Positions 1 to 60,319 of a stretch of 64,000 bases of DNA are shown one piece after another. The notes beneath the pieces were generated by a model, which was given only the letters and a program-made list of their open reading frames with translations, did not search any database and had not been told where the DNA came from. The stretch spans positions 1 to 64,000 of the forward strand of contig JAUHXA010000032.1 in NCBI GenBank assembly GCA_030427245.1, given 5' to 3'. Every line of letters starts with the position of its first letter. Position 1 is the first letter of the stretch. Position numbers and translations under genes: made by a program. The DNA comes from Bacteroidia bacterium (GTDB lineage Bacteria; Bacteroidota; Bacteroidia; Chitinophagales; UBA2359).

Positions 1-115
1 TGACATAGTTGTTCTTCTTCCCAATGACGTGCATATCTGCCATCATTTTGAAGTAGCGCTTTTCGGTGCGAGAAAGGGAGTGAATGAGGTCGAAAAGGTC
101 GGTTGGAGGAAGCAT
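1..115 (-). CDS. LFDLIHSL-family helical protein, N-terminal fragment (runs off window)
   Basis: The reverse strand opens with ATG at 115 and stays open to the window edge, so only about 38 residues are visible. They read MLPPTDLFDLIHSLSRTEKR and then YFKMMAD. This is clearly homologous to the N-terminus of the complete 519-residue protein at 58760-60319, which shares TDLFDLIHSL, then EKRYFK, then a K-rich NNYV/NYLK segment. The function is unknown. The gene is divergent from the secreted protein at 367, an arrangement that mirrors the 58760 copy beside its small-peptide genes. The fragment is too short for the usual ORF cut-off, so the call rests on the paralogue match, which I regard as strong. 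Confidence 0.85.
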   Translation of the reverse strand, partial: MLPPTDLFDLIHSLSRTEKRYFKMMADMHVIGKKNNYV

Positions 116-285
116 TTCTGTTTTGTTACAGTGTTTGAAGCCTATGTTTTTTGATTGAAAAAATGGTTAAAAAACAATAGAACTCTTTTGTAACGGCAAT
201 TCTGTTGCCTTATTATTTTCAAAGCCCTAAAAATAAAACCTATGTTTCTGAAAAACCTTGTTTCAGGCCAGCCTACTTTCACCCT

Positions 286-322
286 TATCTTTGTGGTGTA
301 ATCAAAACGAAAAAAGATTACA
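286..322 (+). promoter_or_regulatory. Bacteroidetes-type -7 box with adjacent inverted repeat, upstream of the 367 gene
   Basis: TATCTTTG at 286-293 matches TAnnTTTG exactly, with a weak TTTC about 21 nt upstream. It is followed by GGTGTAAT. TGTAATC (297-303) and GATTACA (316-322) form a 7-bp inverted repeat just after the expected start of transcription. The run TATCTTTGTGG-TGTAAT recurs in the promoter of the small-peptide genes near 58606. Confidence 0.6.
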
Positions 323-366: not shown

Positions 367-930
367 ATGACAACTTCAATCAGCAAATTCAGTATCAACA
401 ACATTTTGAAAGTCTTAGCAATCGTTTTAGTATTTTGTTTTGCAACGAATAGTAGCTTTGCACAATATCAACTTCCTTCAAAATACCAGATCAAAAAAGC
501 CCCTACTTACAAGTACAATAAACCTATTTACATCCCACAACCTTCTTGCCCAGATCTGAAAGCAATGCCCATTGAATTTACAGTTCTGAGTCGCCCCACT
601 GCTTATACCGCAAGAGTTCGAGTAACCGCAACCATCAAAAACATTGGTGGAGCAGATTATATCTCAGGCAGCAATCAACAAGGAATACAATTGTATATAG
701 GCAGTAGAATCGTCCGAAATGTACCTTTCTCCAATTTGGCAAAAGGACAGACACGCACCGTCACCTATGATATGACCTTCTCGACTTCTGACGAATTTCC
801 TCCAACGATTAAGCTCTATATTTCTTATGACCCTGACATCGCTATTGACGGAAACCCTAAGAACGACGAGTGTACTTACTCCAACAACCAAAGTTCACGT
901 GACAGTAGGGAAATTGGGGGGCTGCTATAA
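367..930 (+). CDS. Secreted CARDB-like protein
   Basis: This is a 187-residue protein with a clear signal peptide: a hydrophobic core at about 14-26 and probable cleavage after FA at about residue 32. It has a short basic, proline-rich linker, then one beta-rich domain at about 58-170 (PDL at its start, VTATIKNIGG, a T-rich turn, then LYIS). This is the usual pattern of CARDB or DUF11-like Ig-fold adhesion modules. There is no sorting tail or enzyme motif. It is expected to be periplasmic or exported and probably binds something, but no partner is evident. It stands alone, with its own TAnnTTTG promoter at 286, and is divergent from the LFDLIHSL-family fragment. The family call is by pattern and is moderately secure. 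Confidence 0.8.
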   Translation: MTTSISKFSINNILKVLAIVLVFCFATNSSFAQYQLPSKYQIKKAPTYKYNKPIYIPQPSCPDLKAMPIEFTVLSRPTAYTARVRVTATIKNIGGADYISGSNQQGIQLYIGSRIVRNVPFSNLAKGQTRTVTYDMTFSTSDEFPPTIKLYISYDPDIAIDGNPKNDECTYSNNQSSRDSREIGGLL

Positions 931-3116: not shown

Positions 3117-3998
3117 ATGTATTTTTCCTTCAAAAAAATAACGTATTCCCTCACTTTCGCTTTGATTCTATTTTTGGTATCCGATGCACTTTTGGCACAA
3201 ATCAAATACAATACTAGGGATCGAGCAGTTATTAATCAGCCCACCACCAATAACAATTGTTGTCAAAATGCCCAGGGCAACTGCGTCAAGGTCGGTACAA
3301 ACACTCCTTGTCAGGGAGTAACTAACTGCGCTCCCTGTAATCAACAACCCACTAATATCACGAACAATTGGGGACAAGCAGGAACAGGCGTTGCGTGCAG
3401 CGATTGTGACAAACCTCTTTTGATGAATAAAAATGGGCAGGTTTTTATAGACAAAATGCTCACACTTGGTGGCGGTAGATTGTTGGCTGGACAGCAAGGT
3501 ATTGGCATTTCGGGAGATTTTGAACCTGTCAAAGCCAATTCCTTCAATTTGGGAAGTCCGAACAGCCCCTTCAAAGCAGTCTATGCTCAAAAAATTGTGG
3601 GACAAGTTTCCAAATATTCGGACAGAAGGCTGAAAACCAGTATTTCAAAAGTACCTTATGGGCTGCAAACGGTGATGCAATTGAAGCCAAGCATCTATCA
3701 CTACAAAAACAATATGGAAGGTAAACGAGAATTGGGTTTGATTGCCCAAGATTTGCAACAGGCAGTTCCCGAAGTAGTAGACGAAAGTGGAGAGTTTTTG
3801 AGTGTTGACTATACCGCATTGGTGCCTGTATTGATTCAAGCGATTCAGGAACAGCAAGCGATTATTGAAAACCAAAAATCCACCATTGACAGCCAGAAAA
3901 CGATGATGGAACAGACGCAAAGCGAATTGAAGGATTTGAAGGCAAATTTGGAGGAGGTGATGGATTTTCTGCAATTGAATAAAACAATTACTCAGTAA
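3117..3998 (+). CDS. Tail-fibre-type protein with S74 intramolecular chaperone domain
   Basis: This is a 293-residue protein with a signal peptide at 1-28, then an Asn/Cys-rich stretch (CCQNAQGNC and similar) and a short beta region. The C-terminal peptidase_S74 (endosialidase chaperone) domain starts near residue 163 with YSDRRLKTSI, followed by LKPSIYHYKN, LGLIAQDLQQAVPEVV, VDYTALVPVLIQAIQEQQ and a coiled coil to the end. In this family the domain trimerises fibre proteins and may cleave itself at the Ser-Asp of the SD-R-LK motif, and both residues are present. In Bacteroidota such proteins are common non-phage secreted proteins, and no phage genes are nearby. The gene is probably monocistronic. 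Confidence 0.88.
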   Translation: MYFSFKKITYSLTFALILFLVSDALLAQIKYNTRDRAVINQPTTNNNCCQNAQGNCVKVGTNTPCQGVTNCAPCNQQPTNITNNWGQAGTGVACSDCDKPLLMNKNGQVFIDKMLTLGGGRLLAGQQGIGISGDFEPVKANSFNLGSPNSPFKAVYAQKIVGQVSKYSDRRLKTSISKVPYGLQTVMQLKPSIYHYKNNMEGKRELGLIAQDLQQAVPEVVDESGEFLSVDYTALVPVLIQAIQEQQAIIENQKSTIDSQKTMMEQTQSELKDLKANLEEVMDFLQLNKTITQ

Positions 3999-29238: not shown

Positions 29239-29811
29239 TCAATTATCGCTGCTTACGACTTCGTCTCCTCCTTGTGTCATAATCACTTCAATCGGTTCTT
29301 TGAAGTTGGTTTGATAAAATCGGGTAAGGCGGAAAAGTTTTTGCTCCAAACTTTGATTGAAGGAAGCCAAATCCTTTGATTTGTATTTACCATTCAGCAA
29401 GTCTTTTTTAAGCCCACTCAACACTTTGTTAAACTCCGTTGCAGTGGTACGATAGGCGATTCTGATTTGGGAAATATCTTCGGAACTATACAGGTGTTGA
29501 TTTGATTTTACCAATTTAATGGTCTCCTCAATTTCTATTTGCATTGCCACATACTCTTGCATAAATCGGGTATTCTTCAATTGCTGCATATTAGAGACTA
29601 CTTTCTCCGAAACGCCTGCAAGCGGGTGCGAGTAATTTGATGAAGCACTGTTGTTGTAAGAGTTGTTTTGATCGTAGGGATTGTTTGGATCGTACTCGTT
29701 GTAGGAGTTGTAATCCTCATATTGACCATATTGGTCGTTTTGTGCGGACAAGGAGAAATACATGACCAATAGTAAAAAAACAGATAAGATATGTGATTTT
29801 GAAATTTTCAT
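29239..29811 (-). CDS. Exported protein of unknown function with Asn/Tyr/Asp-rich linker
   Basis: This 190-residue protein has a signal peptide at 1-23 (cleavage near SAQ). A low-complexity stretch follows at about 24-60, made of repeated Y-N-S/D and DPNNPYDQNNSYN units. A helical domain at about 65-180 begins HPLAGVSEKVVSNMQQLKNT and contains IRIAYRTTATEFNKVLSGLKKDLLN. I recognise no family. The helical part could be a periplasmic binding or scaffold domain. It is convergent with serC (14 nt apart) and stands alone. Confidence 0.8.
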   Translation of the reverse strand: MKISKSHILSVFLLLVMYFSLSAQNDQYGQYEDYNSYNEYDPNNPYDQNNSYNNSASSNYSHPLAGVSEKVVSNMQQLKNTRFMQEYVAMQIEIEETIKLVKSNQHLYSSEDISQIRIAYRTTATEFNKVLSGLKKDLLNGKYKSKDLASFNQSLEQKLFRLTRFYQTNFKEPIEVIMTQGGDEVVSSDN

Positions 29812-30141
29812 GGTAGCAAGTATTTTGAATGTTAGTTGATGTTTGTTAAAATGTTGTTTCTTAACAACACTTACAAATATATAGGAAGTAAGAGAAGGTT
29901 GAAAGCCATTTTTTATACAAACATAGGAGTCTGACTTACCACAATCTCATACATATATTTGAGCGAGACAGAACTGTATAAAGGGTCGAAAATATGATTT
30001 GGGGAGTTGTGTTTACCTTTTTGTAGTTGCTTTGAATCAACTTCAGTTACTCTATTAGACGAAAGGAAAGAGGTATTTTGGAAAGGTTGAAGGCATTGAT
30101 AAAAAAAATAGCCCTATTGTATTGTTTTTCAGAAGTTCACT

Positions 30142-56845: not shown

Positions 56846-57961
56846 TTAGTTCATAGCCAATCGGTCTTTTGTTTTGCTTTTTCCTTCCCCAAACTCCTTC
56901 AATTGGCGAAAATGCGACTTCAATGCACTCCAAAAAGTGGGGTATTCGTGGTATGGCAGTCCAAATTCACGAGCCGTTTTTTTGACAATCGGTGCAATGG
57001 CGGGGTAGTGAATGTGGCAGATGTGGGGAAAAAGATGGTGTTCGATTTGGGAGTTGAGTCCACCACATAAGAAATTAACCACTGGATTTTGTACAGCAAA
57101 ATTGGCGGTGGTCTTCAATTGGTGTGTTGCCCAAGTGTGCTGCAATTCTCCGCTTTCATTGGGCGTGGGAAAATCCACTTTTTCGACAATGTGCGCCAAC
57201 TGAAAAACCATCCCCAAAAACAATCCTTCAACAAACATCATCGCCATAAACAATCCCAATACTTGCCACCAAGGAAGCGACAGCCGTATCAGCGGCACGC
57301 CTAAAAACAAGGTATAGAACAAAAACCGCCAAAAAAACAGATGGAAATACTCTTTTCGTTCTGGTGTAGGACATTCATAACTCCCCAATTTTTTACTGAA
57401 AAACTTGACATATTCTTGCCGAAATGCTCGAAAAACGGCTGATAAACCGTACAATATAAACGCATAATATTGTTGGAAGCGCATGTGGGAAAGTAGAATG
57501 CCATTGGGCGACATCCGCAGCAATTTGGGCGACACTTCAATGTCGTAGTCGTGTTCGGGAATGTTGGTGTAGGTGTGATGAACAATGTTGTGGGTGATGC
57601 GCCATGTGTAGGGATTGACTCCCAAAAGGTCGAAAATGCGCCCCAAGATTTCGTTTGATTTTGGAGAAGAGCTAAACGCTCCGTGAATCGCATCGTGTCC
57701 GATGTTGATGCCTGTCAATGCTTTGAACCAGCCGAGCAAGAGGACAATGGGCAATAACTGCCAAAAGGTGAACCAATTGGAGATGAATAAGCCGTAAAGT
57801 ATGATTGTTCCGACAAAAAATAAACTGCATTTGAACCACATTTGGGCATTGGCGTGCTTGCCTTTTTGATGGTTTTGAAAGTGGGCGTTGACCCGTTTTT
57901 GAAGGGTTTTGTAGAATTTTTGTTGGGATTTGGAGGGTGATTTGAATTGAATGTTGGTCAT
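56846..57961 (-). CDS. Membrane fatty-acid desaturase (acyl-lipid/acyl-CoA type)
   Basis: The start at 57961 (MTNIQFKSPSKSQQKFYK) gives 371 residues. A longer frame to 58099 runs into the terminator of the peptide genes and is rejected. Four membrane helices carry the three histidine boxes: GHDAIHGAFS, THNIVHHTYTN and SQIEHHLFPHICH. The last, with Gln before the paired His, is typical of front-end/delta-6-like desaturases. It inserts a double bond using a di-iron centre with an external electron donor, since no cytochrome b5 domain is fused. It is monocistronic. Confidence 0.93.
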   Translation of the reverse strand: MTNIQFKSPSKSQQKFYKTLQKRVNAHFQNHQKGKHANAQMWFKCSLFFVGTIILYGLFISNWFTFWQLLPIVLLLGWFKALTGINIGHDAIHGAFSSSPKSNEILGRIFDLLGVNPYTWRITHNIVHHTYTNIPEHDYDIEVSPKLLRMSPNGILLSHMRFQQYYAFILYGLSAVFRAFRQEYVKFFSKKLGSYECPTPERKEYFHLFFWRFLFYTLFLGVPLIRLSLPWWQVLGLFMAMMFVEGLFLGMVFQLAHIVEKVDFPTPNESGELQHTWATHQLKTTANFAVQNPVVNFLCGGLNSQIEHHLFPHICHIHYPAIAPIVKKTAREFGLPYHEYPTFWSALKSHFRQLKEFGEGKSKTKDRLAMN

Positions 57962-58042: not shown

Positions 58043-58083
58043 GTAAAAATATCCAGCTTGCTTTTTGCAGAAGGCAAGCTGGA
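58043..58083 (-). terminator. Terminator of the small-peptide gene pair
   Basis: TCCAGCTTGC (58052-58061) and GCAAGCTGGA (58074-58083) pair perfectly over 10 bp, and the minus strand continues into a T run. It separates the peptide genes from the desaturase. Confidence 0.85.
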
Positions 58084-58140
58084 CATTAAAAAATAGCATT
58101 TCGCAACTGTTTGTTCATCAAAAAGTTGCCTATATGCTCT

Positions 58141-58299
58141 TTAAGGATTTTTTTCTTCAGTTTTTGGGTCAGAGTTGTCAATCCCTAAGCCTCCTGACCA
58201 CAATCCTCCTCCTTTGACAAATTGAGTTTTTTGAATTTGATGTTGTGCTAATTTTCCAAAGTTGAATGTCGATTGGTTTTTTGAATTTGTTGTTTGCAT
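58141..58299 (-). CDS. 52-residue GG-leader-type small peptide, copy 1
   Basis: The minus strand, ATG at 58299 to TAA at 58141, encodes 52 residues starting MQTTNSKNQSTFNFGKLAQH. It continues QIQKTQFVKGGGLWSGGLG and ends IDNSDPKTEEKNP. The layout is a polar helix-prone leader with FGKL and I/F/V at helical spacing, a triple glycine at 30-32 and a short C-terminal part without Cys. This recalls the leader-GG-core precursors of Bacteroidota natural products. It is a tandem duplicate of the gene at 58354, 50 of 52 residues identical with mostly silent base changes. Both share one promoter (58606) and one terminator (58043). No modification enzyme or exporter is adjacent, so product and role are unknown. 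Confidence 0.75.
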   Translation of the reverse strand: MQTTNSKNQSTFNFGKLAQHQIQKTQFVKGGGLWSGGLGIDNSDPKTEEKNP

Positions 58300-58353
58300 G
58301 TTAAAAATGTGTTTTTTGATTAATTGAAAATTATTTAAGTATAAGTTACTTGT

Positions 58354-58512
58354 CTAAGGATTTTTTTCTTCCGTTTTTGGGTCAGAGTTGTCAATTCCTA
58401 AGCTCCCTGACCACAATCCTCCTCCTTTGACAAATTGAGTTTTTTGAATTTGATGTTGTGCTAATTTTCCAAAGTTGGATGTTGATTGGTTTTTTGAATT
58501 TGTTGTTTGCAT
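58354..58512 (-). CDS. 52-residue GG-leader-type small peptide, copy 2
   Basis: The minus strand, ATG at 58512 to TAG at 58354, encodes 52 residues differing from copy 1 only at positions 12 (Ser for Phe) and 37 (Ser for Gly). The leader, triple glycine and the acidic end IDNSDPKTEEKNP are the same. It is the promoter-proximal gene, with a leader of about 80 nt after the TATCTTTG box at 58599-58606. The excess of silent over replacement differences from copy 1 supports translation of both. A secreted signal, bacteriocin-like product or modified peptide are all open. Confidence 0.75.
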   Translation of the reverse strand: MQTTNSKNQSTSNFGKLAQHQIQKTQFVKGGGLWSGSLGIDNSDPKTEEKNP

Positions 58513-58588
58513 GTTAAAAATGTTTTAAAAATTAAGTAATTTAGACCTTGAGTGAGAAGTCCAAAAGCAACAAGATGTTTGTTGTCTT

Positions 58589-58619
58589 ATTACACCCACA
58601 AAGATACAGGCAGTGTAAT
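58589..58619 (-). promoter_or_regulatory. Promoter of the small-peptide genes, flanked by an inverted repeat
   Basis: On the minus strand TATCTTTG (58606-58599) is a full -7 box, followed by TGG and GTGTAAT. ATTACAC (58589-58595) and GTGTAAT (58613-58619) on the plus strand are perfect complements that bracket the box. TATCTTTGTGG and TGTAAT also occur in the promoter at 286. The -33 position is only TTTT. Confidence 0.65.
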
Positions 58620-58759
58620 ACCTACTAAAACCAAAAAAATGCTATTTTTAGAAAGCTAAAAAGGAGAGTATTGGCTGATAAACCATGAAGTTGTCTCTGT
58701 ATTCGTCTGGTTAACAACACTTAACACAAAAACACATTGAAGGCAAAAATGGAAGGCTA

Positions 58760-60319
58760 ATGGCAAAAAATACAGATTTATTTGACCTAATTCATTCTTT
58801 AAATCAAAGCGAAAAAAGGTATTTTAAGTTGGAAGCGAGCAAACAACAGGGAGAGAAAAACTATCTCAAGCTTTTTGATGCAATAGATAAACAGTCGAAT
58901 TATGACGAAGACAAATTACTTAGAAAATTTAAGACCCAAGCATTTTCTAAGCAGTTTTCCTCTGCTAAAAACTATCTCTACAATCTCATTTTGAAGTCTT
59001 TGAGTAACTACCACAGCGACAAATCTGTTGCAGATAAACTTCAAAGTGAGTATGTTCGCATTTCGCTGCTACACATCAAGGGACTCCATGAACAATGTTA
59101 TAAACTTTTGAAAAAAGTCAAAAAGGAAGCTTATCGCATCGAAAATTTCGGGTTGTTGGTCAATATCATAGAGCTTGAAATGAAAATCATTGCCGAAAAA
59201 TCTCCCAAACGCTACAACCAAATGTTGTTGCAGCTAACAGATGATCGGATGGACTGTATGAATAAATACGCCAATAGCATCGCTTATCACAATCTCATTT
59301 GGAAAGCCATTTATTGGATTTCGAAAAAAGGAATAGCTCGAAATGAAAACGAAAACCGCCAGACTAAAATTCAAGAATTGATGGCAAATGACTTGCTACA
59401 ATCAGAGTCAAAAGCGCTAAGTGTGACAGCCAAACTGCACTTCAACAATATCTGGTTTTTGTATGAATACTATCAAGGAAACTATGCACAGAGTCTGCAA
59501 TACAAAGAAAGAGAAATTGAAGTGTTGGAAAATCACCCTCTCCTCGAAGAACAATATCCTGAATATGTCAAAAAACTATCGAATGCCATTACCATTATCA
59601 ATCACCTGAGGTTGCATACAAAATTGTTCACTTATTTGGATAAGTTGAAGCAGCTACTATCCAGTAAACTGACGGCCGAACTCAAACCCATTGTATTTAT
59701 TTCGTACTACAATGCGGCCCTTATATCGTATGCTCAAATGGGAGTGGTGGACAAACCCTTGAATCTAATTCCTGAAATCAACGAAGGACTTAAGAAATAC
59801 CAAAAACGACTACACACAAGTAGGTTATTGGATTTATTTTTGAACATTTGCATACTCTACTTCAAAACGGAGCAATTTGAAAAAGCGCAGATATGGTTGG
59901 AAAAAGTACTCTCTCAGAGTGACCTAATACGAGAAGATGTTCACTGTTTTGCTCGAGTATTCGACTTGTTGATTCACTTTGAATTAGACAATGATTTGCT
60001 GTTGGAAAGCTTAATACGCAATTACAAACGGTACTTAAAAAAACGTGAAAAATACTACCTTTTTGAGGACATCATACTGCAATTTTTGAAAAAGAGCTTG
60101 GAAGTAGTCAATCTAAAAGAACTTCAATTACTCTACCAAAACCTACACAACGAATTATTGAAACTCCAGCAAAACGCTTATGAAAAACACCTCCTTCAAT
60201 ACTTTGACTTCATTGCTTGGGTAGAGGCAAAGATTCAGAGAAAGCCACTAATAGAAATACTTCGACTAAGGCAAATTCAAATTAAAGACTCAAGTGAAGA
60301 TTCAAGCAACGCTTTATAA
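58760..60319 (+). CDS. LFDLIHSL-family helical protein of unknown function (complete)
   Basis: This is a 519-residue protein with no signal peptide or membrane helix, probably cytoplasmic. The N-terminal about 75 residues (TDLFDLIHSLNQSEKRYFKL, LFDAIDKQSNYDEDKLLRKF) are the conserved family mark. The rest is a long run of helical hairpins with TPR-like spacing (ILYFKTEQFEKAQIWLEKVL), suggesting a protein- or peptide-binding superhelix. A second family member is cut by the left window edge. Both are divergent from a gene for an exported or leader-type product with a shared promoter element, so a regulatory or sensing role is suspected. That is inference. No DNA-binding domain is recognised. 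Confidence 0.88.
   Translation: MAKNTDLFDLIHSLNQSEKRYFKLEASKQQGEKNYLKLFDAIDKQSNYDEDKLLRKFKTQAFSKQFSSAKNYLYNLILKSLSNYHSDKSVADKLQSEYVRISLLHIKGLHEQCYKLLKKVKKEAYRIENFGLLVNIIELEMKIIAEKSPKRYNQMLLQLTDDRMDCMNKYANSIAYHNLIWKAIYWISKKGIARNENENRQTKIQELMANDLLQSESKALSVTAKLHFNNIWFLYEYYQGNYAQSLQYKEREIEVLENHPLLEEQYPEYVKKLSNAITIINHLRLHTKLFTYLDKLKQLLSSKLTAELKPIVFISYYNAALISYAQMGVVDKPLNLIPEINEGLKKYQKRLHTSRLLDLFLNICILYFKTEQFEKAQIWLEKVLSQSDLIREDVHCFARVFDLLIHFELDNDLLLESLIRNYKRYLKKREKYYLFEDIILQFLKKSLEVVNLKELQLLYQNLHNELLKLQQNAYEKHLLQYFDFIAWVEAKIQRKPLIEILRLRQIQIKDSSEDSSNAL

Follow-up and report, generated by a model that had tools for sequence, protein, structure and literature searches.

Why should two related genes, near opposite ends of one stretch of bacterial DNA, each stand back to back with an unrelated gene, and is the facing gene under their control? 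The stretch (the window, 64,000 nt) begins where contig C100 begins and belongs to a draft genome of 7.58 Mb from the phylum Bacteroidota. An initial annotation, made from the letters alone, recognized two members of one helical family at 58760 and at 1-115, and suggested that the helical protein might sense or regulate its opposing gene, as a repeated two-part module.

Two related genes and the genes they face

The complete member of what is called here the LFDLIHSL family, C100R, occupies 58760..60319 on the plus strand (by ORF call) and encodes 519 amino acids, starting with MAKNTDLFDLIHSLNQSEKRYFK. The second, C100L, enters the window on the minus strand at 1..115 (ORF 115-1), encodes MLPPTDLFDLIHSLSRTEKRYFK in its 38 N-terminal codons and then runs off the contig. 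The two ORFs are homologous, as had been claimed. The remainder of C100L lies on contig C28 (L031), whose end shares an exact 127-nt overlap with that of C100, joining the halves into a protein of 507 amino acids that begins MLPPTDLFDLIHSL. Exact overlaps of this length split three family genes, at contig ends C100/C28, C81/C14 and C185/C103, an artefact of the assembly graph.

Facing C100L is a gene (367..930, plus strand) for an exported protein of 187 amino acids, with a signal peptide and a CARDB domain (Pfam PF07705, E 9e-6, above the cut-off). Downstream of it, and possibly in one unit with it, is a gene at 1071-2888 for a secreted protein of 605 amino acids with DUF7452 repeats (Pfam E 8e-78). 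The product of 3117..3998 (plus strand) is a secreted protein similar to S74 (endosialidase chaperone) proteins, with 38.5% identity (E 8e-24) to the divergent partner of another family gene, C156, in which Pfam S74 was found. C156 is the closest paralogue of C100L in the tree. Each of these sister paralogues thus neighbors an S74-type secreted gene homologous to the other's, an arrangement consistent with co-duplication of regulator and target.

Facing C100R are two ORFs on the minus strand, each for a peptide of 52 amino acids, the proximal at 58354..58512 and the distal at 58141..58299. They are the product of a tandem duplication (58141-58512), about 96% identical over 172 aligned nt, and occur in this genome alone, with no relatives elsewhere among 299 genomes of the order. 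Searches of NCBIfam and Pfam gave the peptides no match up to E 1, GG-leader families included. The initial annotation was right about the partners, a secreted CARDB-like protein on one side and twin small peptides on the other, and it had also considered GG-peptides; that character is rejected here, since the canonical leader positions do not fit and no leader family matches. Between the peptides and a fatty-acid desaturase gene downstream (about 56846-57961, minus strand) lies a strong hairpin (58046..58087, minus strand; fold z -4.1) that probably terminates the peptide unit. A simple terminator scan did not flag it.

Both facing genes have the same -7 box, TATCTTTG, at 286..293 (plus strand) for the CARDB protein and at 58599..58606 (minus strand) for the twin peptides. 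The box fits TAnnTTTG, the -7 consensus of Bacteroidota (sigma-ABfr promoters; PMC7366714). From the ATG of C100L to the opposing box is 170 nt and from that of C100R 153 nt, one less in each case than first counted (171 and about 154), and the similarity of the divergent spacing stands.

The family and its neighbors

Pfam holds no family for LFDLIHSL proteins, giving TPR matches below threshold only, yet the family is found throughout the Bacteroidota. Its nearest named relative is NCBIfam profile NF058569, for the ribose utilization protein BT2802 of Bacteroides thetaiotaomicron, which I take to be RusR. C100R matches that profile with 216 bits (E 9e-64), its residues 1-501 aligning with positions 1-502 of 502, and so shares full-length homology with the superfamily of RusR-like proteins. 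All scores lie below the curated cut-off of 550 bits: 216 for C100R, 123 for C100L and 429 for L238, a member linked to ribose genes. RusR regulates the ribose genes BT2803-2809 (PMC12596196). The neighborhood of L238, found in genome G162 and the best scorer against the profile, agrees with that precedent, in that it faces genes for a ribokinase, a transporter and nucleoside-hydrolase-like proteins, as in the described ribose locus.

The window's own genome gives 19 family matches, about 15 genes after contig-split pieces are joined. Genomes of the same family carry up to a dozen strong copies, and most other genomes with a match carry one or two. The roughly 15 paralogues here are a lineage expansion, paired mostly with exported proteins. 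One of them (C128; L036, 7035-10360) is split by an apparent IS607-type element, carrying a recombinase and a TnpB-like ORF, and the operator-like element beside that gene looks decayed too.

An AlphaFold2 model of C100R is all-helical (pLDDT 89.7) and, together with the fold search, divides into an N-terminal helical domain (residues 1 to about 114) and a TPR superhelix. Among solved structures, the TPR part of the predicted model lies closest to the Rap/NprR receptors (Z 18-19.6 over about 300 residues), followed by LGN (Z 17.9) and MalT domain III (Z 16.9). Most of the invariant residues (E18, K19, R20, F22, K70) are within the N-terminal 114. Searched alone, that domain, where regulators of the RRNPP group carry an HTH or a Rap-type three-helix bundle, found no PDB match above Z 3.5, which is not evidence of a new fold, and neither Pfam nor the fold searches recognized a helix-turn-helix or other known DNA-binding domain.

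If the window's arrangement is typical, family genes should be divergent from their upstream neighbors more often than other genes are. For 80 named loci, with ORFs picked in a simple way and signal peptides predicted heuristically, I compared the upstream neighbor of each family gene with those of the remaining genes in the stretches concerned. Divergent cases make up 74% for family genes and 37% for controls (p 2e-8), and cases both divergent and facing an exported product 46% and 11% (p 8e-11); these figures come from heuristic gene calls and signal-peptide predictions, a fragmented draft genome and related loci that are not independent samples. The same comparison within the host's family gives 55% and 37% for divergence and 21% and 7% for divergence with export; within the window's own genome, 73% and 45%, 36% and 11%. 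When partners were clustered by homology, with a coverage limit, divergence remained enriched (42/62 against 165/423 controls, p 2.8e-5), as did divergence with export (20/62 against 58/423, p 6e-4). Single-linkage clustering was dropped, since it lumped together secreted proteins with no relation to one another, probably because of T9SS tails that they share. The initial annotation's expectation that the divergent neighbor would be enriched for exported products is thus borne out for the two properties together, but not for export given divergence, where 48% against 35% in the dereplicated set is not significant (p 0.16). About a third of family genes run codirectionally with the upstream gene.

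Nor are exported proteins or GG-peptides the defining partner type, as had been supposed: exported proteins are one class, and leuA, ribokinase, glyoxalase and other genes are faced as well. The phylum sample contains 57 family genes, of which 52 are divergent and 42 face leuA or leuC, a pairing kept across families and classes. About 15 loci face a secreted M1-like peptidase (named from its sequence, with no profile scan), others face large secreted proteins whose tails resemble those of T9SS cargo, and others small lipoproteins. A glyoxalase is the partner at C128, and a glyoxalase-like protein at a locus in G103. At L103, L107 and L109 the divergent partners are tiny secreted proteins of 118-138 amino acids, consisting almost entirely of a domain that resembles a sorting tail.

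Elements upstream of the partner's -7 box

What might such a protein recognize? The initial annotation pointed to TATCTTTGTGG followed by TGTAAT at both opposing promoters. The two are indeed there, directly adjoining on the left and with one G between them on the right. TATCTTTGTGG-N0-2-TGTAAT occurs three times in 7.58 Mb, its reversed pattern not at all, and TATCTTTGTGG alone occurs 15 times against 6 for its control, so the combination is not due to chance. It is an ordinary Bacteroidota -7 box with a TGTAAT flank. The third copy, at C172:199966, precedes a secreted-protein gene with no adjoining family gene, contrary to the expectation that the element would recur at family loci only. Nor does TGTAAT serve as a family-wide operator, with no significant enrichment over controls in 50 intergenic regions of family genes outside the group that faces M1-like peptidases. 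A 7-bp inverted repeat at both -7 boxes had also been described. The repeats exist, TGTAATC-N12-GATTACA at 297..322 (plus strand; arms 297-303 and 316-322) and ATTACAC-N17-GTGTAAT at 58589..58619 (arms 58589-58595 and 58613-58619), and the left one recurs at C172:199936-199971. They do not share a layout: both left arms follow the -7 box and the right arms flank it.

A better candidate emerges from the leucine pairs. An unsupervised search of 25 representative pairs, which made no use of position, returned the motif TTAC[GA]AyrTyyA on the regulator strand, with a log-likelihood of 87 against 35-38 in shuffled sequences. Most pairs have it at -71 to -73 from the regulator's ATG, and one family at -83 to -94. 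Of 23 footprints checked, 20 are separated by 39-41 bp from the -7 box on the leu side, including that of the leucine copy in the window's own genome. The leu-type weight matrix gives a weak signal in non-leu members (p about 0.02). The M1-like group has a footprint of its own, TTGTA[AT]TCCT, about 54 bp from a -7-like box.

At exported partners a related motif was first spotted by eye, in windows anchored on the partner's -7 box, and tested afterwards. Its core, TAG[GA][AT][ATG]TC[CT], has 12 matches in the 15.2 kb of intergenic DNA at family genes and none, on either strand, in 17.8 kb of control (87 divergent regions). Where a strict -7 box is present, the distance is 42 or 43 bp in six cases of six. 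These promoters also share a TGGTTTTCA-like stretch near -33; the set was chosen by the motif, so that only conservation in the flanks, this stretch included, is independent. An unanchored search of all family upstream regions outside the M1 group gave a blurred motif, which anchoring on the partner's -7 box resolved. In partner sense, the leu and exported types resemble variants of a single site (TTTGGACTCCTAC, from L153, and TTTGGACACCGTAG, from the genome's own leu copy). A better family element is TTGGAnnCCTA or TTGGAyryCGTAA, which precedes the -7 box of the partner by about 40-43 bp and is strong in leu pairs and in many exported pairs. The p-values here and below apply each to its stated test and are not corrected for the exploration as a whole.

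At the window's own two promoters the element is recognizable but weak. Scored by a matrix trained solely on other genomes, the operator-like element TAGAAAGCT (58649..58657, plus strand) lies 42 bp from the opposing -7 box, with one mismatch to TAG[GA]WDTCY (corrected p 0.008), and TAGGTTTTA (234..242, minus strand), the weaker, lies 43 bp from its box (corrected p 0.046). The same search found no such element at C88, C26a, C26b and C185.

Are there similar sites away from family genes? Scanning the genome with CAAANNTA-N35-50-TAGRWDTCY gave 17 matches, seven of them at a spacing of 42 or 43. Five of these seven are intergenic and before secreted-protein genes, whereas the ten with other spacings include no such case (p 0.003). 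Two of the five, at C35 and C156, adjoin family genes; the others, at C172:199975, C88:73821 and window positions 29874-29932, do not. The last is a perfect element, CAAATATA-N42-TAGGAGTCT (29874..29932, plus strand, with its promoter on the minus strand; p 4.5e-5), and the gene downstream of it, for a secreted protein of 190 amino acids (29239..29811, minus strand), is a probable distant target. The C172 match coincides with the third copy of TATCTTTGTGG-TGTAAT.

Within the host's family, 7 of 25 exact matches are upstream of family genes, some at loci that had fed the motif; those in G203, G214 and G216 had not, though their genera had contributed loci. In the phylum sample a match (G103:C1:1139680) falls just upstream of the family gene that faces the glyoxalase-like protein, as at C128. 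Over 198 genomes across the phylum, the exact pattern shows no overall excess over its reversed control, so that the claim for the element rests on its position beside family genes, not on counts. Element-like sites at spacings of 40 and 42 also precede apparently orthologous nucleotide-sugar dehydrogenase genes in two genera (L299, C40:443-499; L323, G216:C16:42862-42920), which are possible further members of the regulon.

A proposed regulator of the facing gene

Homology, divergence, conserved partners, conserved elements at a fixed spacing and a resemblance of fold are established, and from these I infer DNA binding, activation, a signal and the assignment of regulator to site. I propose that LFDLIHSL proteins are one-component transcription regulators, members of a Bacteroidota-wide family that includes RusR, each divergent from its main target and probably activating it at the spaced element. 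On balance I consider this probable. The protein would act at an element whose center lies about 45-50 bp before the target's -7 box. In partner sense this element reads TTTGGA-[C/A][T/A]-CCTA where the partner is of exported type and TTTGGAyryCGTAA in front of leu operons, and its position, at a constant distance ahead of the -33 region, is that of an activator site. The conserved N-terminal domain would probably contact DNA or RNA polymerase and the variable TPR superhelix would probably bind a signal: perhaps a metabolite for the leu and ribose members and, given the Rap/NprR-like fold, conceivably a peptide for members paired with exported proteins. C100L would then probably control the gene for the CARDB protein and perhaps those that follow, C100R would likewise probably control the twin peptides, and some paralogues appear to control distant secreted-protein genes too. 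A signal-responsive activator of the divergent gene is the most likely reading, given the element's geometry, the back-to-back layout, the precedent of the ribose genes and the conservation of the N-terminal domain; against it, NCBIfam names BT2802 a ribose utilization protein, not a regulator. The module first suggested thus gains in credibility from enriched divergence, conserved leu and ribose pairs and spaced elements at partner promoters, while the element originally chosen for it does not survive. A fuller version, that these are phylum-wide activators with an N-terminal domain of new fold touching DNA or polymerase and a Rap/NprR-like TPR sensor, a conserved regulator of the leucine operon whose repeated duplicates control secreted proteins from an element fixed about 42 bp before the -7 box, I put forward tentatively, as possible but short of probable.

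Such a regulator would resemble several known systems. With RusR/BT2802 the window's proteins share a full-length family, and a member is divergent from ribose-type genes in G162, but the scores are well below the cut-off and the window's members face exported proteins or peptides instead of ribose genes. Like MalT and other activators with TPR sensors, the family has a TPR sensor domain and a proposed activator geometry, but neither an ATPase (STAND) module nor a LuxR-type HTH was seen. The layout recalls classic divergent pairs, e.g. those of LysR type, with the regulator back to back with its target and, in between, an element whose distance from the target promoter is constant, though the protein is unrelated, its N-terminal domain matches no known fold and the promoter is of the Bacteroidota -7/-33 kind. 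To my knowledge few transcription factors of Bacteroidota are understood, and this family is large and almost unstudied. If the proposal holds, a family absent from Pfam controls leucine synthesis in much of the phylum and, by way of duplicates, many secreted proteins; the sensing mechanism of RusR becomes addressable; and the window's pair is one case of a phylum-wide arrangement of regulator and target. The operator and its spacing are now specific enough for testing.

The same geometry could serve another factor. The element might be bound by a different, unlinked protein or mark an extended promoter class, with the family protein a cofactor that makes no contact with DNA, e.g. a TPR sensor acting on RNA polymerase or on a sigma or anti-sigma factor. 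The N-terminal domain's lack of a match to any DNA-binding fold speaks for this, as do the element's nearness to the -33 region, where exported-type promoters share TGGTTTTCA-like sequence, and the copies far from any family gene. Against it, variants of the element track the class of partner (leu-type at leu, another type at M1), and none of the 87 control divergent regions contains the core; this comparative evidence would fit specific binding of the operator by the family protein itself. I judge the cofactor explanation rather unlikely. Less likely still is signaling in the manner of the RRNPP proteins (Rap, NprR, PlcR, Rgg), where the TPR domain would bind a peptide encoded by the partner gene (one of the twin peptides or a piece of an exported protein) and each pair would unite a sensor with its own signal. 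The model does have a C-terminal TPR superhelix, a candidate peptide binder, nearest in fold to Rap/NprR, and expanded paralogues are paired with small or secreted proteins; but TPR folds are common and the lead over LGN is under 2 in Z, neither an HTH nor a phosphatase feature was seen, the partners are for the most part not propeptides (leuA, ribokinase, M1-like peptidase, secreted proteins of 800-1400 amino acids), the targets include metabolic operons, a short SP-type propeptide is not the rule, the twin peptides have no recognizable leader and are confined to one genome, and the family belongs to Bacteroidota, not Firmicutes. Mere coincidence, in a phylum rich in divergent pairs and secreted proteins, can appeal to the 37% of control genes that are divergent and to the lack of a significant rise in export given divergence. 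It is very improbable, with divergence itself so strongly enriched and the leu pairing, with its spaced footprint, conserved across families and classes.

A larger share of doubt concerns TATCTTTGTGG-TGTAAT and its inverted repeats, which might serve a separate repressor as its operator, at the start sites of a few secreted-protein genes and with no relation to the LFDLIHSL family. The motif sits at or just after the -7 box, as a repressor's site would, one copy (C172:199966) has no family neighbor and TGTAAT is not family-enriched outside the M1 group. I regard this as a serious possibility, though I would not expect it to be correct, for all three copies have a family-type element 42-43 bp upstream, strong at C172 and weak at the window's promoters, so that both layers could be one regulon. 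The TGTAAT repeat at the -7 box of the three promoters may be a second, repressor-type layer. An inverted repeat at C26b (GGTGTAATC...GATTACACC) was not counted with these, since it resembles a dispersed palindrome of the same genome, TGTAATCTTGATGCGGTCGCCTTGAGATTACA. That 32-nt palindrome and its variants account for most of 19 places in the genome, on contigs C6, C12, C18, C19, C31, C71, C91, C123, C126 and others.
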